From Streptomyces antibioticus (GTDB lineage Bacteria; Actinomycetota; Actinomycetes; Streptomycetales; Streptomycetaceae): a DNA stretch of 64,000 nt. The notes beneath the pieces were generated by a model. That model saw only the letters and a list, made by a program, of their open reading frames with translations. It was not told the origin of the DNA and searched no databases. Location of the stretch: the NCBI RefSeq assembly GCF_001514065.1, contig NZ_KQ948430.1, positions 305,816 through 369,815 of the forward strand, read 5' to 3'. Shown in pieces: positions 25,701-42,324 of this stretch (position 1 is the first letter of the stretch; each line of letters starts with the position of its first letter). The position numbers and the translations under genes were made by a program.

Positions 25701-26256
25701 GGACGGAGGCCTTGGTCTGGAGGAGGTCCTGGGTGGTCTCGACGATCAGGGCGTCGGAGCCGCCGGCGAGCAGGCCCTCGACGTTGGCCTGGTAGCCGTC
25801 GCGGATGGTGGCGTAGTCGATGTGACCGAGGGTGGGCAGCTTGGTGCCGGGGCCCACGGAGCCGAGGACCCAGCGCTGGCGGCCGTCGCGGGCGGTGAAC
25901 TCGTCGGCCGTCTCGCGGGCGATGCGGGCGCCGGCCTCGGACAGCTCGTGGACCCGGTCGGCGATGTCGTACTCGGAGGCGGCCGTGTGGTTGGACCCGA
26001 AGGTGTTGGTCTCGACGCAGTCGACGCCCACCGCGAAGTACGCGTCGTGGACGGAGCGGACGATGTCCGGGCGGGTCACGTTGAGGATCTCGTTACAGCC
26101 TTCGAGGTTCTCGAAGTCCTCAAGGGTGGGGTCCTGCGCCTGGAGCATGGTGCCCATGGCTCCGTCGGCGACCACCACTCGGGTGGCGAGCGCCTCGCGG
26201 AGCGCGGACACACGGGCCCGGCTGTCGGCGGAAGGGGACGGTGGCAACGAGGCCAT
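22741..26256 (-). CDS. metH: Cobalamin-dependent methionine synthase MetH
   Basis: A 1,171-residue enzyme that transfers the methyl of 5-methyl-tetrahydrofolate to homocysteine through cobalamin. Modules run in order. The homocysteine domain has DGAMGTML near residue 31 and zinc cysteines GGCCGTTPEHL near 303. The pterin domain has ERTNANGSKKFREAM and later PIVLDSTEVDVIQAGLE. The B12 cap and binding domain has DVHDIGKN with the cobalt-ligating His near residue 747. The SAM-dependent reactivation domain ends EQSTDAIVIHHPEAKYFNAR. ATG 26256 has GGGAG 7 nt upstream; a start at 26328 is less likely. It is divergent from gylR. No cobalamin riboswitch was recognisable upstream. Confidence 0.96.
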   Translation of the reverse strand: MASLPPSPSADSRARVSALREALATRVVVADGAMGTMLQAQDPTLEDFENLEGCNEILNVTRPDIVRSVHDAYFAVGVDCVETNTFGSNHTAASEYDIADRVHELSEAGARIARETADEFTARDGRQRWVLGSVGPGTKLPTLGHIDYATIRDGYQANVEGLLAGGSDALIVETTQDLLQTKASVLGARRAMEALGADVPLVVSMAFETTGTMLLGSEIGAALTALEPLGIDMIGLNCSTGPAEMSEHLRYLTRHSRIPLLCMPNAGLPILTKDGAHFPLDPEGLADAQENFVRDYGLSLIGGCCGTTPEHLRQVVERVRDLTPAERHPRPEPGAASLYQTVPFRQDTSYLAIGERTNANGSKKFREAMLEGRWDDCVEMARDQIREGAHMLDLCVDYVGRDGVADMKELAGRFATASTLPIVLDSTEVDVIQAGLEKLGGRAVINSVNYEDGDGPESRFAKVTQLAREHGAALIALTIDEEGQARTPETKVAIAERLIDDLTGNWGIHESDILIDTLTFTICTGQEESRKDGIATIEAIRELKRRHPDVQTTLGLSNISFGLNPAARILLNSVFLDECVKAGLDSAIVHASKILPIARFSEEEVQTALDLVYDRRAEGYDPLQKLMALFEGATAKSLKAGKAEELAALPLEERLKQRIIDGEKNGLEADLAAALETRPALDIVNETLLDGMKVVGELFGSGQMQLPFVLQSAEVMKSAVAYLEPHMEKSDAEGKGTIVLATVRGDVHDIGKNLVDIILSNNGYNVVNLGIKQPVSAILEAAEEHKADVIGMSGLLVKSTVIMKENLEELNSRGMAADYPVILGGAALTRAYVEQDLHEIYQGEVRYARDAFEGLRLMDALIGVKRGVPGAALPELKQRRVRAGSVQVEEERPEEGHVRSDVATDNPIPAPPFWDTRVIKGIQLKEYASWLDEGALFKGQWGLKQARTGDGPTYEELVETEGRPRLRGLLDRLQTENLLEAAVVYGYFPCVSKDDDLIILDDQGNERTRFTFPRQRRGRRLCLADFFRPEESGETDVVGLQVVTVGSRIGEQTAKLFEANAYRDYLELHGLSVQLAEALAEYWHARVRSELGFAGEDPNDIEDMFALKYRGARFSLGYGACPNLEDRAKIADLLQPERIGVHLSEEFQLHPEQSTDAIVIHHPEAKYFNAR

Positions 26257-26560
26257 GAAAGGGCTCCCTTTGGGTGCGACGGCTGTCGGCTTTGCGTCCC
26301 GCCGTAGGGCTTCCCACAGCGGGCGCACGCCGCCAGGGTAGCCGGGACCGGCACCGGATGGTCAGGGAGTCCACGGGGCGGACGAGGATGACGGGCAGGT
26401 CATCGGCGGGATACGAGTGACGAGAGACTGCGTGTCGGTGGCGCAAACGTGTCGTCCGACTATTGGCGGTCGGTCGGCATGGACTAGTAGTGTTCGACAT
26501 TGCCGAACGGCGGCAGCGACGTCGCGGGTCGACGGCGAAGGGGACGGAGGCAGGACGGCG
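26257..26560. other. metH/gylR divergent promoter region
   Basis: About 300 bp between the two start codons. It holds the gylR promoter and operator near 26463-26506. On the metH side I found no B12-box or S-box riboswitch landmarks and no confident promoter. Confidence 0.55.
26463..26506 (+). promoter_or_regulatory. gylR promoter with GylR operator
   Basis: TTGGCG (26463-26468) and TAGTAG (26485-26490), 16 bp apart, form a candidate promoter. Starting on its last base is GTGTTCGACATTGCCGA (26490-26506), an imperfect palindrome (GTTCG-N7-CGAAC). It matches 16 of 17 bases of a site upstream of glpF in reverse orientation. Its place at the start point suggests autorepression. Confidence 0.65.
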
Positions 26561-32536: not shown

Positions 32537-33709
32537 TCAGCTCAGTGAGGTGACGGTCTCGCGTACGGCGGTCGCGTCCCGCAACTCCTCGCGGCGCACG
32601 ATCAGTTCCCGGCCCAGCAGCAGCGCCCTGCGGGACGCCGGTGCCGGGTCCGGGAGGGTCGTCAGGTCGGTCAGGTGGGCGAAGCCGATGATGCGGCGGA
32701 TGATCTCCGTGCCCGCGTAGCCGACCGCTTCCGTCCAGACGCGGCGCAGGAAGCGGTCCAGGTAGGCGTCGTCGAAGAAGGTGTCGACGCGGGTCGGCCA
32801 CAGCCGGCGGAACTCCGTCTCGAAGGCCTCCCAGGACAGCCGGAGTTGGTCGCCGTGGTCGCTCAGCGACCCCAGCGCCCGTGCCCGTTCCTCCGACACC
32901 AGGGCGTTGGCCCAGTACAGGCCGAGGTCGTAGCCGATCGGGCCGACGAAGGAGAACTCCGGGTCGAAGACCCGTACGACGGGGGCGCCTTCGCGGTCGC
33001 CGACCATGATGCTGCCGGTGTGCAGGTCACCATGGAGGAGGGCCTGGGCGCTGGTCATGAACGTGTGCCGGAGGTCGGCGACCTCGGTGCGCAGGCGCGC
33101 GTCGGCGCGGAACTCCGCCGCCAGGTCGGCCACGCCCTCGTGCCAGTGGTTGTGCTCGTGCTCGATGTACGGCTCGGAGAGGACCACGTCCTCGGTGATC
33201 TTGCAGAGCTCGGGGCTGACCGAGGCCGCGATCAGGGCCTTGCGTTCGGCGGAGGGCATGCCGAAGTCGCTGGTGGCGAAGGAGAGCTGGGCCACGAACT
33301 CGCCCACCCGCGCCGAGGTGTTCGGGCCGTAGGCCGCGCCCTCGTTGAGGAGCGTGCGCAGGACCTCTAGATCCGACATGTCCTCCATGACGAGGGCGTA
33401 GTTCTCGGGGTCGTAGCCGTGGATCGCCGGGATCTTGTCCGGGGCCACCTTGGCGACCTGGTCGTAGGCGCGGGCCTCGGCGTCGGCGCGGTCGGGGTTC
33501 ATCGGCCAGGACGGGCCGGCGACGCGGACCCACGGCAGGGCCTGCTTCACGGCGAGGCTGCGGGTGCCGGCGGGCGAGGTCGCCAGGAAGACGCGATTCA
33601 TGTTGCCGTCGGAGACCTCCCGGACCTCCGGGTCGGCGGCCTCGTCCCAGTGGCCGCGCTCGCGCAGGTACGCCGGGATGTCCTCGGTCTCCAGGATGCG
33701 GTAACCCAT
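32537..33709 (-). CDS. mtnK: S-methyl-5-thioribose kinase MtnK
   Basis: A 390-residue aminoglycoside-phosphotransferase-like kinase that phosphorylates methylthioribose to methylthioribose-1-phosphate. It begins MGYRILETEDIPAYLRERG. Motifs include EVSDGNMNRVFLA (Gly loop), LAVKQALPWVRVAG (Lys, typical MtnK), MEDMSDLEVLR, the catalytic loop LLHGDLHTGSIMV and metal site VRVFDPEFSFVGPIGYDLG. The VRVAG and HGDLHTGS segments are MtnK hallmarks that separate it from other APH folds. It is the last gene of the importer operon, 11 bp after the permease. It should supply substrate for MtnA at 39.9 kb. Confidence 0.94.
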   Translation of the reverse strand: MGYRILETEDIPAYLRERGHWDEAADPEVREVSDGNMNRVFLATSPAGTRSLAVKQALPWVRVAGPSWPMNPDRADAEARAYDQVAKVAPDKIPAIHGYDPENYALVMEDMSDLEVLRTLLNEGAAYGPNTSARVGEFVAQLSFATSDFGMPSAERKALIAASVSPELCKITEDVVLSEPYIEHEHNHWHEGVADLAAEFRADARLRTEVADLRHTFMTSAQALLHGDLHTGSIMVGDREGAPVVRVFDPEFSFVGPIGYDLGLYWANALVSEERARALGSLSDHGDQLRLSWEAFETEFRRLWPTRVDTFFDDAYLDRFLRRVWTEAVGYAGTEIIRRIIGFAHLTDLTTLPDPAPASRRALLLGRELIVRREELRDATAVRETVTSLS

Positions 33710-33720
33710 CGTGAACTCCC

Positions 33721-34764
33721 CTATGCGGTGCGGCGCTTGGACAGGGTGAAGCTGAAGACCAGGGCGAGGATGAGGACCGCGCCCTCGACGACGTCCTGGG
33801 TGTAGTACGGCAGGCCCTTGATGGTCAGGCCGGTGGTGATGATGCCGATCAGGACCGCGCCGAGGGCCGTGCCCCAGACGTTCGGGCGGCCCTTGCCCAG
33901 GACCGATGTGCCGACCAGGGCGACCGCCACGGCCTCCAGGAGCTGCGAGGTGCCGGCCGACACGTCGCCCTGGCCGATGCGGGAGGCCAGGATCAGGCCG
34001 CCGACGGAGGCGAGGACACCGGACAGGACGTAGGCGAGGGCCCGGTACGCGCCGACGCGGATGCCGGCCAGCCGGGACGCCTCGGGGTTGGCGCCGATGG
34101 CGTAGAGCACACGGCCCCAGCGGGTGCGGGCGAGGAAGACCCAGGCGGCGATCGTCAGCCCGCCGAAGACGAGGACGGAGATCGGGATGCCGAGGACCGT
34201 GCCTCGGTCGATCTTCAGGAAGCCCTCGGTGAACTTGCCGGGTGCGGTGGAACCGTCGTCCAGGGTCATGCCGGGGGTGATGGACTGACCGTCGACCAGG
34301 ACGAGTTTGAGGCCCTGGACGATGAACAGCGTGCCGAGGGTCGCCAGCATGTCGGGGATCTTCAGTACGACGATCAGCAGGGCGTTGAGCAGGCCCACCA
34401 CGGCACCCGCCGCGAGCACCGCGATGATCGCGACCGTGCCGACCTGGTTGTAGACGACCATCGTCTGCGCGGCGACGGAGACACCGAGGCCCGCCACCGC
34501 GCCGACGGACATGTCCATTCCGCCGACGGCCAGGGTGAGGGTGACGCCGAGGCCGAGGATGGCGGCGACGGAGACATAGCGCAGGGTGTCGAGGAGGGTC
34601 GCCGACTCGCGGAAGGAGCCCTCGCTGAGCGCGAAGTAGAGGAAGAGCGCGACCGTCACGAAGATGAAGCCGTACTTGATGACAGCGTTCTGGACGCGCG
34701 CGGCCGGGGTGGCCGTGGTGGACGGGGTCGCCGTCTTCACCGGGGTGCTCTGGGCTGTGGTCAT
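33721..34764 (-). CDS. Ribose-type ABC transporter permease, probable methylthioribose importer
   Basis: A 347-residue RbsC-like permease with about ten membrane helices. Family landmarks are GLGVTLTLAVGGMDMSVGAV, LNALLIVVLKIPDMLATLGTL, and the cytoplasmic loop RWGRVLYAIGANPEASRLAGI that contacts the ATPase. In sugar importers of this family it forms a homodimer. The gene lies between the double ATPase (28-bp gap) and mtnK (11-bp gap). The substrate assignment to methylthioribose or a related sugar is inference from that operon. Confidence 0.9.
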   Translation of the reverse strand: MTTAQSTPVKTATPSTTATPAARVQNAVIKYGFIFVTVALFLYFALSEGSFRESATLLDTLRYVSVAAILGLGVTLTLAVGGMDMSVGAVAGLGVSVAAQTMVVYNQVGTVAIIAVLAAGAVVGLLNALLIVVLKIPDMLATLGTLFIVQGLKLVLVDGQSITPGMTLDDGSTAPGKFTEGFLKIDRGTVLGIPISVLVFGGLTIAAWVFLARTRWGRVLYAIGANPEASRLAGIRVGAYRALAYVLSGVLASVGGLILASRIGQGDVSAGTSQLLEAVAVALVGTSVLGKGRPNVWGTALGAVLIGIITTGLTIKGLPYYTQDVVEGAVLILALVFSFTLSKRRTA

Positions 34765-34792: not shown

Positions 34793-36346
34793 TCACACCG
34801 ACGCCGAGATGGTCTGGATCACGCGGTCGCGTTCCGCGTCCTCGCCGTAGGCTTCGAGGTGGATCTCGCCGGCGGCGAGCACGACGACGCGGTCGGCGAC
34901 CTCCAGCACCTCGTCGACGTCGGCGGACAGGACGAGCACGGCGGCGCCCTCGGCGGCCAGGGCGCGGGCGCGGCGGCCGATGTCGCGGCGGGCGCCGATG
35001 TCCACGCCTCGGAACGGCTCGTCCAGGATGAGGACGCGGGGTGTCTCGGCGAGCCAGCGGCCGACGACGACCTTCTGCTGGTTGCCGCCGGACAGCTCCT
35101 CGACGGTGCTGTGTTCGTCGCGGGTGACGACACCGAGGGCTTCGATGGTGTCGCGGCCGAGGGCGTCCTCCTTGGCCGTGTTGACGAGGCCGAGCCGGGA
35201 GAAGGACTTCAGGAACGGCAGCGAGATGTTCTGGGCGAGGGACCAGCCGGGGACGAGGGCGTCGGCGTGCCGGTCCTCGGGCACCAGGTGGATGCCGGCG
35301 CGGATGGCGTCGGCGGGGCGGCGGGGCGCGTAGGGCTGGCCGTCGAGTTCGACGGTGCCCGACGTGAAGGGCTCAGCGCCGAACAGGCCGCGGGCCAGCT
35401 CGGTCTTGCCCGCGCCCAGCAGGCCGACGACGCCGGTGACCTCGCCTGTGCGGATGTCGAGGTCGAGCGGCGTGCGGCCCTCGAAGAGCCTGACGCCCCT
35501 GAGCGAGAGGGCCACTTCATGCGAGGGCCCCCCTTCCCGTACTGGCCGGGCCGTGGTCGCCTCGTGGGCCTGGGCGAGCATGGCGCGCAGGGCCGCGTCC
35601 CAGTCGAAGGGCTTGGCCTGGTCCTCGGTGAGACGGCCGTCCCGCAGGACGACCAGCCGGTCGGCGAGGGCGTCGATCTCGCCGAGGCGGTGGGAGACGT
35701 AGAGGACGGCGATGCCGTCGTCGCGCATCTTCTCGACCAGGGCGAAGAGGCGTTCCGCCTCGGCCGCCGACAGCGCGGAGGTCGGCTCGTCGAGGATGAG
35801 GAGGCGCGGGCGGGTGGCCAGGGCGCGGGCGAGGATGAGCAACTGGCGGTCGGAGATGCCGAGTTCGGTGACGTCTTTCTTCAACAGTGCGTCGCTCCAG
35901 CCCAGTTCCAGGCCCGCCTGGATCTCGCGGGCGCGGGCCAGCAGCTTGGCACCGTTGAGGAAGGGGTTGCCGCGGCGCTGGGCGAGCTCCTCGAAGGCGA
36001 GGTTCTCGGCGACCGTGAGGCCGGGCACGATGCCCTCGCCGATGCGCTGGTGCACGGTCTGGATGCCCAACTGCCGGGCGGCCAGCGGCGACTGGAGGGC
36101 CGCGGGCTCCCCCGCGACCCGCACCTGTCCGCCGTGGTCGGTGTGCACGCCGGACAGGATCTTGATCAGGGTGGACTTGCCGGCGCCGTTCGCGCCGAGC
36201 AGCGCGACGACGCTGCCCGGCGCGATGTCCAGCGAGACGGACTCCAGGACCGTCTTGCCGGCGAAGGCCATGCTGACGTCGGTCAGCGCAACGGCCGGTT
36301 CGCCGGGCGACGGCACCTCAGCCGGCGGCGTCTCAGTGGGCGACAT
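34793..36346 (-). CDS. Double ABC ATPase of a ribose-type importer
   Basis: A 517-residue RbsA-like protein with two nucleotide-binding domains. The N-terminal domain has Walker A GANGAGKST and Walker B LLILDEPTSALS. Its signature region is ISDRQLLILARAL, without the canonical LSGGQ. The C-terminal domain has LLGAGKTEL in place of a full Walker A and a proper LSGGNQQKVVVGRWL followed by VLILDEPFRGVDIGA. Such asymmetry is common in this family. The ATG at 36346 lies 14 nt inside the end of the binding-protein gene, so the two are translationally coupled. Confidence 0.92.
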   Translation of the reverse strand: MSPTETPPAEVPSPGEPAVALTDVSMAFAGKTVLESVSLDIAPGSVVALLGANGAGKSTLIKILSGVHTDHGGQVRVAGEPAALQSPLAARQLGIQTVHQRIGEGIVPGLTVAENLAFEELAQRRGNPFLNGAKLLARAREIQAGLELGWSDALLKKDVTELGISDRQLLILARALATRPRLLILDEPTSALSAAEAERLFALVEKMRDDGIAVLYVSHRLGEIDALADRLVVLRDGRLTEDQAKPFDWDAALRAMLAQAHEATTARPVREGGPSHEVALSLRGVRLFEGRTPLDLDIRTGEVTGVVGLLGAGKTELARGLFGAEPFTSGTVELDGQPYAPRRPADAIRAGIHLVPEDRHADALVPGWSLAQNISLPFLKSFSRLGLVNTAKEDALGRDTIEALGVVTRDEHSTVEELSGGNQQKVVVGRWLAETPRVLILDEPFRGVDIGARRDIGRRARALAAEGAAVLVLSADVDEVLEVADRVVVLAAGEIHLEAYGEDAERDRVIQTISASV

Positions 36347-37430
36347 TCGGGATCCAGTCCGCGGTCGCGACCTGGGAAAGGTTCAGCGCGGGCAGCGCCG
36401 TGCGCAGCTGGTCCATGTTCTCGATCTTCTTCTCGCGCAGGAAGTCCTGTGTGATGGCGACGGCCGGGAACTCGACGGAGGTCTTGTTCAGCTGACCGGC
36501 CAGCTCCAGGGCGGTGGTGCGGACGACGGCGGCGCCGACGGCGGACGGGTCGGTGCCGGCGGTGGCGACCCAGGGGCTGTCGGCGGCGGTCATCTGCTGG
36601 ATGTCGGCGTTGGAGACGTCCGCGCCGAAGACCTTCACCTTGTCCTGGAGCTTCTTGTTCTGCACGGCGAGGACGGTGCCCTTGGCGAGCTCGTCGTAGG
36701 GGGCGAAGACACCGGCGACGTCGCCGTGCTGGGTGAGCGCCGCGGAGACGAGGGGAACGTTGTCGGTGGCCGTGGAGTCGGTGACCTTGCCGACCTTGAA
36801 CTCCTGCTTCCAGCCCTGCGCCGCGAGTTCCTTCGTCCAGACGGTGTTGCGCTTGTCGAGGGCGGCGTAGCCGGCCACGTTGACGTAGCCGACCTTGGCG
36901 TCCTTGCCGACCTTGTCGGCCATCACGTCGAGGACGGCCTGGGCCATGCTGGCGTCGTCCTGCTTGGTGGAGACGACGCCCTTGGTGGCGGTCTCGACGT
37001 CGTAGACGACGACCTTGATGCCCTTCTTCACGGCCTTGTCGATCTCCGGCTGGATGGTGGCCGGGAAGCCGTGGTCGATGATGATCGCCTTGGCGCCGGA
37101 GTTGATGGCCGAGGAGAGGTCGGTGGCCTGCTTGGCGTTGTCGGCCTGGGCGTCGTACACGGTCAGGTCGATGCCGAGGGCCTTGGCCTGCGCCTTGGCG
37201 CCGTTGCCCCACTGCTCGAAGTAGTCGCCGGCGCCGCTCTGTCTGACCAGGGCGACCTTGACCGCGCCGGCGCTGAACGGGGCGGGCTTCTTGCCGGTGG
37301 CGGCCGACGCGGAGGCGGCGGTGTCGCCGGCGTCCTTGGAGGCGTCGGTGGACTGCGAGCAGCCGGAGAGCACGAGCGCGGAGAGGGACGCGAGGGAGAG
37401 CGCGGCAAGGGGCAGACGGGTGCGGGACAT
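36333..37430 (-). CDS. Ribose-type solute-binding lipoprotein, probable methylthioribose-binding protein
   Basis: A 365-residue lipoprotein. Signal MSRTRLPLAALSLASLSA is followed by lipobox LVLSGC (Cys24). The mature domain is a Peripla_BP_4/RbsB-like fold: VKVALVRQSGAGDYFEQWG, AINSGAKAIIIDHGFPATI, VDKAV-type helices, KVGYVNVAGYAALDKRNTVW, and AGVFAPYDELAKGTV. ATG 37430 has GGAG 7 nt upstream. It is the first full gene of the operon ending in mtnK, and a 23-codon leader ORF ending in Cys-Arg precedes it. The ligand is inferred, not seen. Confidence 0.9.
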   Translation of the reverse strand: MSRTRLPLAALSLASLSALVLSGCSQSTDASKDAGDTAASASAATGKKPAPFSAGAVKVALVRQSGAGDYFEQWGNGAKAQAKALGIDLTVYDAQADNAKQATDLSSAINSGAKAIIIDHGFPATIQPEIDKAVKKGIKVVVYDVETATKGVVSTKQDDASMAQAVLDVMADKVGKDAKVGYVNVAGYAALDKRNTVWTKELAAQGWKQEFKVGKVTDSTATDNVPLVSAALTQHGDVAGVFAPYDELAKGTVLAVQNKKLQDKVKVFGADVSNADIQQMTAADSPWVATAGTDPSAVGAAVVRTTALELAGQLNKTSVEFPAVAITQDFLREKKIENMDQLRTALPALNLSQVATADWIPNVAH

Positions 37431-37481
37431 GGTGGGGCTCCAGGTGCGGGGTGGTGCTGAGCGGATGAAGGGGGTGCCTGG

Positions 37482-37542
37482 CCCGGAGCGCGAGCAGAAG
37501 GGAATGCGCCACCGCCGAAGGAGGGCAGGGCGGGGCTCCGGG
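37482..37542 (-). promoter_or_regulatory. Long-range hairpin in the leader of the importer-mtnK operon
   Basis: CCCGGAGC (37482-37489) is complementary to GCTCCGGG (37535-37542), with a 45-nt loop. The latter lies 6 nt past the stop codon of leader peptide 1. A ribosome paused at the leader's last codons could cover one arm, so the stem is a candidate attenuator element. Confidence 0.35.
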
Positions 37543-37547
37543 AGGGG

Positions 37548-37619
37548 TCAGCGACAGCTGGCGGTGGTCGTCCGGAGCAGGTCCACGTACAGCCGCCGTA
37601 CGAGCAGCAGCGTCTTCAT
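37548..37619 (-). CDS. Leader peptide 1, Cys-Arg ending, upstream of the importer-mtnK operon
   Basis: A 23-codon ORF read leftward from ATG 37619 to TGA 37548. It starts MKTLLLVRRL and ends YVDLLRTTTASCR. The pattern RR-aromatic-x-D-L-x-R ... C-R-stop is that of the short cysteine leader peptides found before sulfur and transport operons in Streptomyces. The gene has no Shine-Dalgarno. A -10 CATGAT ends only 6 nt before the ATG, so the mRNA probably begins at or next to the start codon (leaderless). It lies 117 bp upstream of the solute-binding protein. Ribosome behaviour at the Cys codon just before the stop is the expected signal. Confidence 0.7.
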   Translation of the reverse strand: MKTLLLVRRLYVDLLRTTTASCR

Positions 37620-37625
37620 ATGCAG

Positions 37626-37655
37626 ATCATGAGAACGATTTCAGCCATCCGTCAA
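37626..37655 (-). promoter_or_regulatory. Promoter of leader peptide 1 and the importer-mtnK operon
   Basis: On the minus strand TTGACG (37650-37655) and CATGAT (37626-37631) are separated by 18 bp. The expected start of transcription falls at the ATG of leader peptide 1. Confidence 0.6.
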
Positions 37656-37770
37656 AGGTGTGGAAGCGGTTTCTCAGCAGGTGAGACAACGACTACGTCA
37701 CACGCGATTGACCGGACATGGCGGGTTACCATCGCGGGACCGGCACCCGACCCGGCACAGTGAGGCCCCG

Positions 37771-37845
37771 ATGACGACACCCCGTGCGAACGCGCTGCGT
37801 ATGCCCTGCATGCGCGGCTGTTGTCGCGCGCTGTGTCGCGGCTGA
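37771..37845 (+). CDS. Leader peptide 2, polycysteine, upstream of mtnD-mtnC-mtnB
   Basis: A 24-codon ORF from ATG 37771 to TGA 37845. The second half, [14 protein letters not shown], contains four cysteines. GAGG (37762-37765) lies 5 nt before the ATG. It resembles the polycysteine short ORFs that act as cysteine-responsive attenuators in mycobacteria. A TTGACC element at 37708-37713 may be the -35 of its promoter. The mtnD start is 104 bp further on. An in-frame extension to 37660 is open but lacks a ribosome site. Confidence 0.6.
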
Positions 37846-37926
37846 CCGACTGTCCCGCCGCGTTTCGCCGCCGTCCCTCTTCCTCCCCCGCCGGTCCGGT
37901 GCTTGTCTCGGTATCCGGACTTTCCT

Positions 37927-37940
37927 TCCAGACTCCTGGA
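37927..37940 (+). promoter_or_regulatory. Small hairpin occluding the mtnD ribosome site
   Basis: TCCAG (37927-37931) pairs with CTGGA (37936-37940) around ACTC. The 3' arm contains most of the mtnD Shine-Dalgarno (GGAG, 37938-37941), 8 nt before the ATG. Short, but placed to lower mtnD initiation unless opened by upstream translation. Confidence 0.35.
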
Positions 37941-37949
37941 GTTGTTCCC

Positions 37950-38549
37950 ATGACGCTGCTGACCACCTGGTCCGAGTCCGGCCCCGAGACGCAGGTCCGC
38001 CGTACCTCGGACCCCGCCGAGATCGCCGAGGCGCTCAAGCCGCTCGGCGTGCGCTACGAGCAGTGGCCGATCCGCGAGGACGTGCCCTTCGACGCGGACA
38101 GCGACACGGTGTTCGCCGCGTACGGCCCGGAGATCGAGAAGCTGAACGCCGAGGAGGGCTTCACCACCGTCGACGTCCTCGGCCTCCACCCCAGCGACGA
38201 CCCGGAGTTCCCGGCGAAGGCGAAGGCCGCGCGCGAGAAGTTCCTCCAGGAGCACACGCACGACGACGATGACGAGGTCCGCTTCTTCGTCTCCGGTTCC
38301 GGCATCTTCTATCTGCACGTGAACGGCGAGGTGCACGCGGTCTTCTGCGAGAAGGGCGACCTGCTGGGCGTGCCGCGCGGCACCACCCACTGGTTCGACA
38401 TGGGCACCAACCCCTCGTTCACCGCGATCCGCTTCTTCCACGAGGAGGACGGCTGGATCGGCAACTTCACCGGTTCGACGATCGCGTCCCGCTTCCCGGA
38501 CTACGACACGATCGCGGCGGGCTACGAGGCGGACAAGGCCTCCGCATGA
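37950..38549 (+). CDS. mtnD: Acireductone dioxygenase MtnD
   Basis: A 199-residue cupin that cleaves acireductone to the keto acid of methionine plus formate (Fe form), or to methylthiopropionate, CO and formate (Ni form). Metal ligands are H102 and H104 in [13 protein letters not shown], and H147 in PRGTTHWFD. The third ligand should be Glu109, but there is one more residue between H104 and it than in the common HxHx3E pattern, so Asp108 could also serve. GVRYEQWPI and [17 protein letters not shown] are family segments. ATG 37950 has GGAG upstream inside a small hairpin. mtnC overlaps its end by 4 nt. Confidence 0.95.
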
Positions 38550-39274
38550 GCCTGTCGTACGACGTGGACGCCGTGGTGCTCGACATCGAGGGCACCACGA
38601 GCGCCACGGGCTTCGTCGTCGACGTCCTCTACCCGTACTCCCGCTCACGTTTCGGAGCACTGCTCTCTCAGCGCAGCGACGATCCGGACGTCCAGCGGGC
38701 CGTCGCCCAGGTCCGCGAGGAGCTCGGCGACCCGGAGGCGGACGCGGCGGCCGTCGAGAAGGCCCTCAACTCCTGGCTCGACGAGGACCGCAAGGCCACC
38801 CCGCTCAAGACCCTCCAGGGCATCATCTGGTCCGAGGGCTTCGCCCGCGGCGACCTCGTCTCGCACTTCTACGACGACGTCGTACCGCGCCTGCGCACCT
38901 GGCACGCGGCGGGCAAGCGGCTGTACGTCTACTCGTCCGGATCGGTGGCGGCGCAGCGGGCGTGGTTCACCAACAGCCCGGAGGGCGACCTGACGTCCCT
39001 CGTCTCGGGGCTGTACGACACCGAGAACGCGGGCCCCAAGCAGGAACCGGAGTCGTACCGCCGTATCGCGGAGGCGACCGGAGTCCAGCCGGCCAGGCTT
39101 CTCTTCCTCTCCGACCGCCCCGGCGAGCTGGACGCGGCCCGTGCGGCCGGCTGGCACGCGGTCGGCATCCGGCGGCCCGGGGAGCCGTACTACGAGCAAG
39201 GCGTCGGCGACCACGCGCAGGCGGGGACGTTCGACGAGATCACCGTTTCTGCCGTTTCTGGGAGCACCGCATGA
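38546..39274 (+). CDS. mtnC: Enolase-phosphatase MtnC
   Basis: A 242-residue HAD enzyme that enolises and dephosphorylates diketo-methylthiopentyl-1-phosphate to acireductone. Motif I is [10 protein letters not shown], with D13 and E15, the DxE(G)TT variant typical of Mtn[29 protein letters not shown], the motif II region [29 protein letters not shown] (Lys) and [18 protein letters not shown] follow. It overlaps mtnD by ATGA and mtnB by ATGA, so the three enzymes should be made in fixed proportion. Confidence 0.96.
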
Positions 39275-39879
39275 CCGCCGACATCAGCGCACTCGACCTG
39301 GAGGAGGCGGGGGCGGTCCTCGCCGCCGAGTCCGCCCGCTTCGCCTCCTTCGGCTGGATGCGGGGCACCTCCGGCAACCTGTCCGTGGTGCTCACCCGTG
39401 ACCCGCTGCGCCTCGCGGTCACCGCGAGCGGCCATGACAAGGGTGAACTGACGCCCGCGGACGTGGTGTTGGTGGACGGGCACGGTGCGGCCGTGCAGGG
39501 CGGCAAGCCGTCCGCCGAGGCCGAGCTGCACGCGCGGGTCGCCGCGCTGACCGGGGCCGGGGCGGTCGTGCACGTCCACACGGTGGCGTCCGTGGCCATG
39601 GGGCGGCGCGAGCCGGGCGGAATCGTCTTCAAGGATCTGGAGATGCTGAAGGGCGTGGGGCAGCCCGCGCACGACGTCGAGGTGACGCTGCCGGTCATCG
39701 CCAACAGCCAGGACATGAAGGTGCTCGGGGACCGGCTGGAGGCCGCGCGGGACCCGCGGATGCCGGCGGTGGTCGTGGCCGGGCACGGGCTGTACGTGTG
39801 GGGGGCCGATCCGCGTCAGGCGCGGCACCACACCGAAGTGGTGGAGTGGCTGCTGGAGTTGGAGCTTTCGCAGCGCTGA
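39271..39879 (+). CDS. mtnB: Methylthioribulose-1-phosphate dehydratase MtnB
   Basis: A 202-residue class II aldolase/adducin-family zinc enzyme that dehydrates methylthioribulose-1-phosphate. RGTSGNLSV and TASGHDKGELTPADVV form the phosphate region. EAELHARVAAL, then VVHVHTVASVA, supplies zinc histidines, and VVVAGHGLYVWG completes the site. ATG 39271 overlaps the mtnC stop by 4 nt with GGGAG 6 nt upstream. It is the last gene of the mtnDCB unit and converges on mtnA, which makes its substrate. Confidence 0.95.
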   Translation: MTADISALDLEEAGAVLAAESARFASFGWMRGTSGNLSVVLTRDPLRLAVTASGHDKGELTPADVVLVDGHGAAVQGGKPSAEAELHARVAALTGAGAVVHVHTVASVAMGRREPGGIVFKDLEMLKGVGQPAHDVEVTLPVIANSQDMKVLGDRLEAARDPRMPAVVVAGHGLYVWGADPRQARHHTEVVEWLLELELSQR

Positions 39880-39900
39880 GCCGCGTTGTCCGGCATGAAC

Positions 39901-39926
39901 AGGGACCCCCGAGTCCGGGGGTCCCT
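39901..39926. terminator. Bidirectional terminator between mtnB and mtnA
   Basis: AGGGACCCCCG pairs with CGGGGGTCCCT around the four-base loop AGTC, followed by TCTT. It lies 21 bp after the mtnB stop and 17 bp beyond the mtnA stop. Confidence 0.88.
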
Positions 39927-39943
39927 TCTTGTCACCCGAGGCT

Positions 39944-40975
39944 CTACTTCAGGTGATCCGCGGGCAGTTCACCGGCGGAGACCTCCAGCACGCCCCGTTC
40001 CGTCACCAGTCCCGTCACCAGCCGCCCCGGCGTCACGTCGAACGCGGGGTTGTGGCCGCGCGACTCGGCGGGCGCCGTGCGCACCCCGCCCCACTCCAAC
40101 ACCTCGGCCTCACCGCGGAGTTCGATGTGGATGTCGTCGCCGGTCTTGGTGGCGAGGTCGACCGTCGTCGTCGGCGCGGCCACCAGGAACGGGATGCCGG
40201 CGTCGGCGCAGGCGAGGGCGACGCCCACGGTGCCGACCTTGTTGGCGGTGTCGCCGTTGGCCGCGATGCGGTCCGCGCCGACGATCGCCGCGTCGACCTC
40301 GCCGCGCAGGATGGTGCCGGCGGCGGCACCGTCGGCCTGGACGTAGTGCGGTATGCCCTCCTGGACCAACTCCCAGGCGGTGAGCCGGGATCCCTGGAGC
40401 AGCGGGCGCGTCTCGTCGGCGTACACGACCTCCAGGCGCCCGCGCGCGTGCAGTTCACGGATGACGCCGAGTGCCGTGCCCCAGCCGGCGGTCGCGAGGG
40501 CGCCGGTGTTGCAGTGGGTCAGGATGCGCAACGGGCGGTCCTCGCCGACCTTTTCGAGCAGCCAGTCGGCGCCGAAGGCGCCCATCGCGCGGTTCGCCTC
40601 GACGTCCTCGCGCTGGACGGCGGCGGCTTCCGCCAGCACCGCGTCGAGGCCCTCGTCGAAGCGGGCCATGACCCGGTCCACGCACACCATGAGATTGACG
40701 GCCGTGGGGCGGGCCGCGCGGACGCGGGCGACGGCCGCGCGCACCTCGTCCTGCGACCAGCCCTCGCGCTCCCCCTCGATGAGCGCGAGCGCGACACCGT
40801 ACGCGCCCGCCGCGCCGATGGCCGGCGCGCCGCGCACCACGAGGCGCTGGATCGCGTCGACCAGGGTGTCCACATCGTGGACATCGAGTGTCTCGGTGCG
40901 CTGCGGCAGCAGCGTCTGGTCGATGAGGGCGAGGCTCTCCCCGGTCCACTCGACCGCACGCAATTCCTGGGGCAT
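39944..40975 (-). CDS. mtnA: S-methyl-5-thioribose-1-phosphate isomerase MtnA
   Basis: A 343-residue isomerase turning methylthioribose-1-phosphate into methylthioribulose-1-phosphate, related to eIF2B. RLVVRGAPAIGAAGAYGVALA is the N-terminal signature. The catalytic pair is C155 in ILTHCNTGALATAGWGTALG and D235 in DAAIVGADRIAANGDTANKVGT. ATG 40975 has AGGAG 9 nt upstream; an in-frame start at 41035 is possible but has no ribosome site. It is transcribed alone on the minus strand, convergent with mtnDCB and divergent from the BMP importer operon. It is the point where both upstream salvage routes of this island would meet. Confidence 0.96.
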   Translation of the reverse strand: MPQELRAVEWTGESLALIDQTLLPQRTETLDVHDVDTLVDAIQRLVVRGAPAIGAAGAYGVALALIEGEREGWSQDEVRAAVARVRAARPTAVNLMVCVDRVMARFDEGLDAVLAEAAAVQREDVEANRAMGAFGADWLLEKVGEDRPLRILTHCNTGALATAGWGTALGVIRELHARGRLEVVYADETRPLLQGSRLTAWELVQEGIPHYVQADGAAAGTILRGEVDAAIVGADRIAANGDTANKVGTVGVALACADAGIPFLVAAPTTTVDLATKTGDDIHIELRGEAEVLEWGGVRTAPAESRGHNPAFDVTPGRLVTGLVTERGVLEVSAGELPADHLK

Positions 40976-41120
40976 ATCGGGACACTCCTGATGTTCCGGT
41001 GGTCTCCGCCACCGTACATGACCTGCACGAACCATAGTTCGAGACAGTCGAGCAGGTGTCCGGAAACGGATGCTACTGTCCAGCGATCAGTCCGCAGACC
41101 GAGACGAAGGAGGAAAGATC

Positions 41121-41186
41121 GTGCTGCTGACCAAGCGCCGTTTCCTCGACTTCGGCCGGTGTGCCGGCGACGGCTGTCGACGCTGA
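41121..41186 (+). CDS. Leader peptide 3, cysteine-containing, upstream of the BMP-importer operon
   Basis: A 21-codon ORF from GTG 41121 to TGA 41186. It begins with Leu-Leu-Thr-Lys then RRFLDFGRCAGDGCRR at the end. Its Shine-Dalgarno, AAGGAGG (41107-41113), is perfect and 7 nt before the GTG. The RR-aromatic-x-D-(L/F) core and terminal Cys-Arg match leader peptide 1. The solute-binding protein starts 88 bp further on, after a hairpin at 41228-41247. Confidence 0.75.
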   Translation: MLLTKRRFLDFGRCAGDGCRR

Positions 41187-41227
41187 CCCGTCCCCGCAGC
41201 GTCCCCCCTCGCCCTCATCCACCCTCA

Positions 41228-41247
41228 CGCGCTCCCGACGGAGCGCG
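41228..41247 (+). terminator. Attenuator-like hairpin between leader peptide 3 and the BMP lipoprotein gene
   Basis: CGCGCTCC (41228-41235) and GGAGCGCG (41240-41247) form an 8-bp stem with loop CGAC. It stands 41 nt after the leader stop and 27 nt before the next start codon. There is no T-tract, so it may act as a terminator or as an mRNA structure near the ribosome site. Confidence 0.55.
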
Positions 41248-41274
41248 CATCGCCGTATCCGGAAGGCCCTCCCG

Positions 41275-42324
41275 ATGCTCCGCAGATCCCGCCGTACCCT
41301 CCAGGTCGCTGCCACCACCGCGCTGCTCGTCACCGCGGCCACCGCCTGCAACGCCGCCGCGAAGGACGACGCCGGCAGCGCGAGCGCGGGCAGCGACACG
41401 TCGTTCACGCTGGTCACCCCGGACGCCGTCGGCCAGAACGAGTTCCTGAAGCTCGCCGTCAGCGGCATCAAGTCCGCGGCGAAGCAGCACAACGGCTCGC
41501 AGAAGGTCTACGAGTCCACGGACACCGCCTCCCAGCAGCAGAACGTGCAGGCCGCGGTCGACGCCAAGCCGGACGTCATCGTGCTGGTGGGCTTCGAGTT
41601 CGCCGACATCGTCGCCCAGCAGGCCGAGAAGAACCCGAAGCAGCAGTTCCTGATCGTCGACGCCTGCACCACGAAGACCTTCAAGAACGTCAGCTGCGCG
41701 GTCTTCCGTGAGCACGAGGGCGTCTTCCTCGCGGGCGCCGAGGCGGGCCTGCTCAGCAAGTCGGGCAAGGTAGGCGCTGTCGACGTCCTCGACACGCCCC
41801 AGTTCCGCCGCTACAGCGACCCGTTCGCGGCCGGCGCCAAGAAGGTCGCGCCGAAGACCACCACCGACACGCGCTTCGTCGGCGGCCAGTCCCCCTTCGA
41901 CGACTCGGCCCGCGCCAAGGAGCAGGCGGACACCCTGCTCGCCAAGGGCTACGACCAGCTGATGGCGGCCGCCGCGGCCGGCAACTACGGCGTCTTCGAG
42001 GCCACGAAGGCCAAGGGCGCGTACGCGTACGGCGTCGACGTCAACCAGTGCACCGCGGCGCCCGGCACGGTCGTCGACAACGTGATCAAGCGCACGGACG
42101 TCGCCGTGGAGAAGGGCATCGAGTCGGTGCTCGACGGCAAGGCGGGCACGACCGTCTCCTACGGCCTCAAGGAGGGCGGCATCAGCCTGACCGGCCTGGA
42201 GGACGGCGTCGCGACGTCGAAGTGCGTCATCGCCGACCACGCGGACGTCCTCGCGAAGGTCAAGGAACTGCGCGACCAGATCGTGTCCGGGAAGCTGACG
42301 GTCGATGACCCCGCCGCCGGCTGA
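41275..42324 (+). CDS. BMP-family nucleoside-binding lipoprotein
   Basis: A 349-residue lipoprotein of the basic-membrane-protein (Bmp) family. Signal RRTLQVAATTALLVTAA leads to Cys25 in a weak lipobox (ATAC). The mature domain has NEFLKLAVSGIKSAAKQHNGS, VIVLVGFEFADIVAQQAEKN, the BMP hallmark EHEGVFLAGAEAGLLSKSGKVG, and YAYGVDVNQC. Characterised BMP systems import purine nucleosides or related compounds. ATG 41275 has GGAAGG 8 nt upstream. The ATPase start overlaps its end by 20 nt. With a phosphorylase and a deaminase downstream, methylthioadenosine or purine nucleosides are plausible ligands (inference). Confidence 0.92.
   Translation: MLRRSRRTLQVAATTALLVTAATACNAAAKDDAGSASAGSDTSFTLVTPDAVGQNEFLKLAVSGIKSAAKQHNGSQKVYESTDTASQQQNVQAAVDAKPDVIVLVGFEFADIVAQQAEKNPKQQFLIVDACTTKTFKNVSCAVFREHEGVFLAGAEAGLLSKSGKVGAVDVLDTPQFRRYSDPFAAGAKKVAPKTTTDTRFVGGQSPFDDSARAKEQADTLLAKGYDQLMAAAAAGNYGVFEATKAKGAYAYGVDVNQCTAAPGTVVDNVIKRTDVAVEKGIESVLDGKAGTTVSYGLKEGGISLTGLEDGVATSKCVIADHADVLAKVKELRDQIVSGKLTVDDPAAG

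Follow-up and report, generated by a model that had tools for sequence, protein, structure and literature searches.

We analyzed a 64,000-nucleotide stretch of the Streptomyces antibioticus genome (hereafter the window; contig NZ_KQ948430.1, positions 305,816 to 369,815), which carries genes for methylthio salvage preceded by three short open reading frames (ORFs) containing Cys codons. An initial annotation had pointed out these ORFs, and their translations and coordinates are as it described. Leader 1 (37548..37619, minus strand) has 23 codons, translates as MKTLLLVRRLYVDLLRTTTASCR and contains a lone Cys codon, UGU, at codon 22, nine codons after Asp13. Leader 2 (37771..37845, plus strand) has 24 codons with four Cys, and both of its conserved Cys codons are UGU. 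Leader 3 (41121..41186, plus strand) has 21 codons, begins with GTG and translates as (M)LLTKRRFLDFGRCAGDGCRR; its Cys19, encoded by UGU, again lies nine codons after an Asp (Asp10).

Leader 1 precedes a minus-strand unit made up of a sugar-type ABC importer and mtnK. The first gene of this unit encodes the importer's substrate-binding protein (Peripla_BP_4; 36333..37430), followed by the ATPase (34793..36346), the permease (33721..34764) and the S-methyl-5-thioribose kinase MtnK (32537..33709; TIGR01767, 414.9 bits against a cut-off of 275). Leader 2 precedes a plus-strand unit that contains mtnD, encoding acireductone dioxygenase (ARD; 37950..38549; PF03079, 100.5 bits), a gene for an MtnC-like HAD hydrolase (38546..39274; PF00702) and one for an MtnB-like class II aldolase (39271..39879; PF00596); we take the latter two to be mtnC and mtnB. 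The mtnA gene comes next, on the minus strand. Leader 3 precedes a BMP-type importer, whose first gene encodes a substrate-binding lipoprotein (41275..42324, plus strand; PF02608), and then phosphorylase-like and deaminase-like genes. MtnK and MtnA scored above NCBIfam cut-offs, and MtnD, the HAD hydrolase, the class II aldolase, the ABC parts scanned and the Bmp protein scored above Pfam cut-offs; the phosphorylase and the deaminase gave matches to related families alone, under NCBIfam cut-offs.

Conservation of the leaders was analyzed in 81 loci, comprising the window and the best 80 of 112 relatives obtained in a search with MtnD; 78 of the relatives are labelled Streptomyces and two 'Actinobacteria bacterium'. 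The presence of a leader was called by our own alignment scores (90, 38, 75), with thresholds chosen after the scores were known. Leader 1 was present in each of the 63 loci that yielded a binding protein of the importer, and leader 3 in 53 of the 58 loci with a BMP protein (L038, L042, L055, L087 and L110 were below threshold). Leader 2 was found in 49 of the 81 loci, that is, in 46/63 with the importer binding protein and 3/18 without it; of these 18 loci, two (L037 and L078) extend only about 400 bases upstream of mtnD, too little for the importer to be seen. The conservation of the Cys codons in orthologs, a check set beforehand, was borne out, as no counted ortholog of leader 1 (63), leader 3 (53) or leader 2 (49) has lost the C-terminal Cys. 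In the window, the 200 bases upstream of the mtnA unit contain no comparable leader ORF, and 72 of the 78 mtnA loci likewise have none. When the order was searched for the importer protein (E-value 1e-100, ten candidates scored per genome), 8 of 197 genomes had it, all of the same genus and one of them its own; MtnD (1e-30) was detected in 29 of the 121 genomes searched in the genus, again counting its own. The evidence for leaders of mtn genes is therefore confined to Streptomyces.

Next to the conservation of the Cys residues stands that of their codons. The Cys codon of leader 1 is UGU in 63/63 orthologs, and so is the codon nine positions past Asp in all 53 orthologs of leader 3; for the inner Cys of leader 3, the 47 orthologs of the main length are split between UGU (24) and UGC (23). 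Of the 49 leader 2 orthologs, all use UGU for the last conserved Cys and 46 use it for the preceding one. By comparison, six genes of the same loci use 650 UGC vs 18 UGU codons, 15 genes of the window use 17 vs 3, and the third position is G or C in 96, 83 and 91% of the remaining codons of leaders 1, 2 and 3. A single tRNA-Cys, with anticodon GCA, would be expected to decode both Cys codons.

The same codon choice was seen outside the mtn loci. Searches with the NCBIfam leader families NF042934 and NF042933, in which loci were selected by amino acid and not by codon, returned 83 loci, 72 of them with a Cys nine codons after Asp and the other 11 either unparsed or without it. These 72 loci encode 64 distinct peptides, all of which have UGU at the ninth codon, whereas at other positions of the same peptides Cys is encoded by UGC 82 times and by UGU 16 times (Fisher p 2.6e-30, with peptides treated as independent, which they are not fully). 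A later sample of the class comprised 30 loci, drawn from ten families and in part the same sites as in the earlier set; all 27 that could be parsed have UGU. The bases flanking UGU vary, and the residues near Asp each use several codons; therefore, the invariance of UGU is not due to a fixed RNA motif or to base composition. A small hairpin around the UGU of leader 1 was considered as its cause and rejected, given that CGC instead of AGC precedes UGU in 18 of the 63 loci (by eye). In the literature searched, this codon rule is not described. Separately, locus L006 has a family-like leader, MSRTSRPSPLLTSRRHIDLQRVCSAIRARG, that carries a Cys at another position but not at the ninth codon past Asp; this leader may be an exception or a decayed copy.

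We then related the window leaders to the existing families. Leader 1 matched NF042934, described as 'putative leader peptide', with 25.6 bits (E 6.6e-6), under the cut-off of 27; it aligns over all 19 positions and has the common Asp-to-Cys spacing. Variants of leader 1 scored 25.1 and 23.1 bits, and its ortholog in L035 scored 29.1, above the cut-off. Neither leader 2 nor leader 3 of the window gave a listed match to NF042934, and leader 2 matches no family model at all. Leader 3 has a weak likeness to NF042933, the Ms5788A family (16.8 bits, under the cut-off of 45), with which it shares K-R-R-x-x-D-x-x-R and a Cys nine codons after Asp, encoded by UGU in parsed members. The form found in L110 is a longer peptide, MPGGTRAQGTLTSRRHIDLCRCAAAGCCL, which scored 26.7 bits with NF042934 and 22.2 bits with NF042933, so that by sequence this peptide connects leader 3 to both families. 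Unlike the Cys-rich leaders of NF042933 and NF042936 (the Ms4527A family), leader 3 has no run of Cys and does have a Shine-Dalgarno sequence; NF042936 gave no listed match. The feature of Asp, nine codons and a Cys encoded by UGU, which is present in leaders 1 and 3, was defined here and not by the curators of the families.

Members of NF042934 scored above the cut-off in 61/61 genomes of a genus sample and in 128/197 genomes of a class sample. Among 14 control genomes, matches with E-values up to 10 occurred in 10, none of them above the cut-off, and thresholds of 0.001 and 0.0001 left 0/14; for NF042933, a threshold of 0.01 left a match in one control genome. From 24 loci of this genome, ten genes located behind family leaders were picked and scanned after their translations had been seen, so the choice was not blind. 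Six of the ten match sulfur-linked families: SfnG and an O-acetylhomoserine/serine sulfhydrylase above cut-off, and SsuC-like, taurine dioxygenase-like, mercaptopyruvate sulfurtransferase-like and nitrite/sulfite reductase-like proteins below it, the last being closest to nitrite reductase. Three match NtaA/DmoA monooxygenases, one of them above cut-off, and one gave no match at 1e-30. Judged by sequence, leaders 1 and 3 show the characteristic features of a type of leader found before sulfur genes, and each of the three window ORFs is a short ORF with a conserved near-terminal Cys codon before a sulfur operon, leader 2 in the 49 loci only. The statement of the initial annotation that Cys leaders precede sulfur genes in Streptomyces was right, and NCBI family models for them already exist.

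How would such leaders control the genes behind them? In leader 1, the arrangement of the promoter and of the downstream RNA is informative. A scan of 37400-41300 detected a single sigma-70-like promoter (0.2 expected), TTGACG, 18 nucleotides and CATGAT (37626..37655, minus strand), which ends six bases 5' of the ATG of leader 1, and the predicted transcript start is the A of this ATG. The pattern TTTGAC, 16-20 nucleotides, CATNAT and 5-8 nucleotides to the ATG is present in 62 of the 63 loci, the exception being L075. No Shine-Dalgarno sequence for leader 1 was seen by eye. Since the position of the promoter puts the transcript start on the ATG, the leader 1 transcript is probably leaderless.

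Downstream, leader 1 is separated from the importer by a long spacer that varies among loci, within which short complementary segments are kept. Segment 1, GCUCCGG (37572..37578, minus strand as for the other three), covers codons 14-16 of leader 1; segment 2, CCGGAGC (37535..37541), lies directly past its stop codon; segment 3, GCUCCGG (37483..37489), can partner either segment 2 or the Shine-Dalgarno sequence; and segment 4, CUGGAGC (37437..37443), is the Shine-Dalgarno sequence of the importer's binding protein. After exclusion of one of the 63 loci, which has no Shine-Dalgarno match, CCGGAG was found within 30 bases past the leader 1 stop in 57/62 spacers (0.53 expected from dinucleotide shuffles), GCUCCGG further downstream in 50/62 (1.76 expected) and both together in 48/62 (0.01 expected). 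These motifs were first spotted by eye; a later count of all exact seven-base complements ranked the pairings 1:2 (48/63) and 2:3 (47/63) at the top. Segment 3 also pairs with the CUGGAGC of the importer, with one G-U pair. The RNA of leader 1 is predicted to pair in two alternative ways, one of which would mask the ribosome-binding site of the importer.

We modelled this switch in the 49 loci that have all segments, letting the ribosome cover bases -15 to +15 from the P-site codon. When the A site moved from codon 22 to codon 23, the probability of pairing 2:3 fell from 0.69 to 0.22, and that of the Shine-Dalgarno region being paired with segment 1 or 3 rose from 0.35 to 0.88. In the model, the switch is located at or beside the Cys codon. 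Leader 1 probably acts on translation. Opening of the Shine-Dalgarno sequence alone was also tried as a thermodynamic test and rejected: the effect was small, because the GC-rich RNA gives GGAG alternative partners, and it was largest at codon 19 and not specific to codon 22.

Taken together, we propose, with a probability of roughly 70%, that the three ORFs encode leader peptides that adjust the import and salvage of methylthio compounds to the supply of cysteine, by means of ribosome-mediated attenuation. We favour this reading because the ORFs are conserved, because the last conserved Cys is invariantly UGU and because the segments of leader 1 flip in the model; for leaders 1 and 3 it is likely to hold, and for leader 2 it is plausible. 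From these data we infer that the ORFs are translated, that ribosomes stall on them, that cysteine is the signal and that pairing shuts the unit. Our model suggests that, when Cys-tRNA is scarce, the ribosome would wait at the UGU near the end of the leader, while with ample Cys-tRNA it would proceed to the stop codon. On leader 1, a ribosome waiting at codon 22 would cover segment 1 and leave segment 2 free to pair with segment 3, so that the importer's Shine-Dalgarno sequence would be unmasked. Once the ribosome reads past, segment 1 or 3 would pair with the Shine-Dalgarno sequence and the importer-mtnK unit would be shut. Leader 3 would be of the same leader type as leader 1, and leader 2 a separate, lineage-variable Cys leader. 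Attenuation of methylthio salvage by cysteine had been proposed in the initial annotation; the conserved Cys codons, the family signature of leaders 1 and 3 and the attenuator-like RNA of leader 1 support it, but a count of complements found no leader-1-like switch for leaders 2 and 3.

This last result counts against attenuation, and several others do too. The pairing 2:3 stands at 0.60-0.79 for any stall from about codon 11 to codon 22, so that codon 22 is the last opening codon and not the sole one. Of the six ribosome footprints modelled, three place the flip at the step from codon 22 to codon 23, which gives the expected logic, a stall at Cys opening the unit and passage beyond it closing the unit. 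The other three place it at the step from codon 21 to codon 22, and a ribosome positioned on the Cys codon would then leave the structure closed. The Shine-Dalgarno sequence itself is seldom modelled as open at codon 22 (0.121 vs 0.065 in free RNA; 63 loci). Segment 2 is absent from 5/62 spacers and segment 3 from 12/62, and one clade without segment 3 still has leader 1. The loci share descent, which makes the shuffle counts overstate their independence, and covariation, sought by eye in the clade with GGAGU (L060, L087, L090, L093, L095, L096 and L101), is not claimed, as the changes in segment 3 are inconsistent. On the side of leader 2, 32 of the 81 loci lack the ORF, and its three codon positions are variable to a similar degree, so that the constraint on the peptide is weak outside the Cys region.

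The output of the leaders might instead be Rho-dependent or other transcription termination in the spacer and not masking of the Shine-Dalgarno sequence. A consensus scan found no intrinsic terminator in 37400-41300 (1.0 expected in shuffles), so the locus does not fit a classical transcription attenuator; Rho has been suggested for mycobacterial cys operons in PMC1262725, and the count of complements gave no alternative structure that is conserved for leader 3. These points leave room for termination by other means, yet the segments of leader 1 that would mask the Shine-Dalgarno sequence are kept in otherwise divergent spacers, and we consider termination unlikely.

A second alternative concerns the signal and is compatible with attenuation. 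The R-R-x-V-D-L-x-R segment, lying in the ribosome tunnel, would aid a pause at the UGU nine codons later, so that the leader would sense cysteine or Cys-tRNA in the manner of an arrest peptide and not by starvation alone. The recurrence of Cys nine codons past Asp in the 72 family loci is consistent with such a role of the nascent chain, the several codons used for each conserved residue near Asp point to selection on the peptide and not on RNA alone, and the single Cys codon of leader 1 is few for plain codon starvation. Leader 2, however, has UGU codons without a segment of this type, and we rate a contribution of the nascent chain as a serious possibility, at somewhat less than even odds. 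More tentatively, we hypothesize that an Actinomycetes leader type senses cysteine by geometry, with R-R-x-V-D-L-x-R placing the ribosome to pause at an obligatory UGU nine codons on. The slow Cys codon would then be part of the sensor and UGC would be unfit, and the mtn locus would hold two such sensors and a third of independent origin that arrived at the same UGU solution.

Returning to attenuation as the preferred reading, leader 2 differs from the other two leaders, its sequence being unrelated to theirs. Upstream of it (37727..37765, plus strand) lie a conserved -10-like TACCAT (37727-37732), which the promoter scan of 37400-41300 did not detect, and a Shine-Dalgarno-like GTGAGG (37760-37765). 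Its codons 2-4 can pair with the end that bears the last UGU in 30 of 45 loci (at a stricter leader 2 threshold), and in a search of this genome for its Cys-end pattern the only occurrence was the window itself. Among the 47 loci with both the importer binding protein and the BMP protein, 33 have all three leaders. The unrelated sequence of leader 2 and its patchy occurrence limit the single regulon that had been proposed to part of the clade.

Leader 2 could also sense methionine and not cysteine, as proposed for the S. lividans metL leader. Internal Met codons occur in 33 of its 49 orthologs, and a leader with three Cys and several Met codons before metNIQ is taken as Met-dependent in PMC8079986. 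Given that the other 16 orthologs have no internal Met, while both Cys are kept in 49/49, we find this very improbable. The metL leader, read as Met-dependent in the same paper (PMC8079986), has three Cys and may itself be a Cys leader. The paper lists eight S. lividans leader peptides and attributes none to cysteine, and a search of its text gave no occurrence of 'methylthio'. In the genome studied here, no ORF with at least two Cys codons was found upstream of the best metN match, one that does not reach the MetN cut-off.

Between the divergent leaders 1 and 2, a gapped inverted repeat, GTGAGAC-N9-GTCACAC (37681..37703, no strand), is a candidate operator of some regulator. A related form is present in 57/63 loci, as counted with a pattern devised after the alignment had been viewed. 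A transcription factor acting at this GTGTGAC-N9-GTCTCAC-like repeat, with the leader ORFs playing a minor part, would account for its recurrence but would leave the conserved ORFs, the invariant UGU and segments 2 and 3 unexplained. We regard this as improbable, although both modes of control can coexist.

Leader 3 has a strong match to a Shine-Dalgarno sequence, AAGGAGG (41107..41113, plus strand). A hairpin about 33 bases 5' of the BMP start was found in 16 of the 53 leader 3 loci (exact six-base match). A conserved block around CCAcAGTTCGAGACag, at about 41040-41060, lies 5' of leader 3, between it and the divergent mtnA.

The window leaders resemble several known systems. Mycobacterial polycysteine leaderless short ORFs reportedly act as cysteine-responsive attenuators, to go by a title of Canestrari et al. 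from 2020. The window ORFs are likewise short and leader 1 appears likewise leaderless, whereas the mycobacterial ORFs serve cysteine genes and the window leaders methylthio salvage, with one to four Cys codons and no long run. Several M. smegmatis cysteine genes are stated to be under translation attenuation (PMC13236596, which cites Canestrari et al. 2020 for this), Cys leaders are predicted before cys operons of mycobacteria and others, with no terminators found (PMC1262725), and ribosome occupancy is reported on such a Cys-leader ORF in M. smegmatis (PMC4633059). The uORFC-8-2 motif before cysS in Rhodobacterales likewise has Cys codons in a short upstream ORF and is a proposed attenuator in PMC8632094; there it has two tandem Cys codons, mostly UGC, and an intrinsic terminator, and belongs to another phylum.

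In the literature searched, there is no account of leader peptides of mtn genes. Our analysis adds to the initial annotation the UGU rule, the alternative pairing of leader 1, the operator-like repeat and the existing NCBI leader family models. What is new is the use of such leaders before methylthio salvage genes, the switch of leader 1 and the codon rule; the kind of regulation was already known. The strict choice of UGU instead of UGC at a constant distance from a conserved peptide segment, in several families and before varied sulfur genes, offers a clue to how a single codon may report the supply of an amino acid, and the rule of Asp, nine codons and UGU lets annotators find leaders that fall under present family cut-offs.

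In Firmicutes, methylthio salvage is controlled by the S-box, a riboswitch for S-adenosylmethionine (SAM); the pathway is the same and control is again by sulfur. By its title, Murphy et al. (2002) is said to describe S-box control of methylthioadenosine (MTA) recycling genes. If our proposal is true, it would be the supply of cysteine, sensed at the ribosome, that governs methylthio salvage in these Streptomyces, in place of a SAM riboswitch. No Rfam family, the S-box included, matched near the methylthio salvage units at gathering scores; the sole match is a distant Streptomyces-metH RNA (RF03076), located at 26254-26386 on the minus strand with 100.5 bits.

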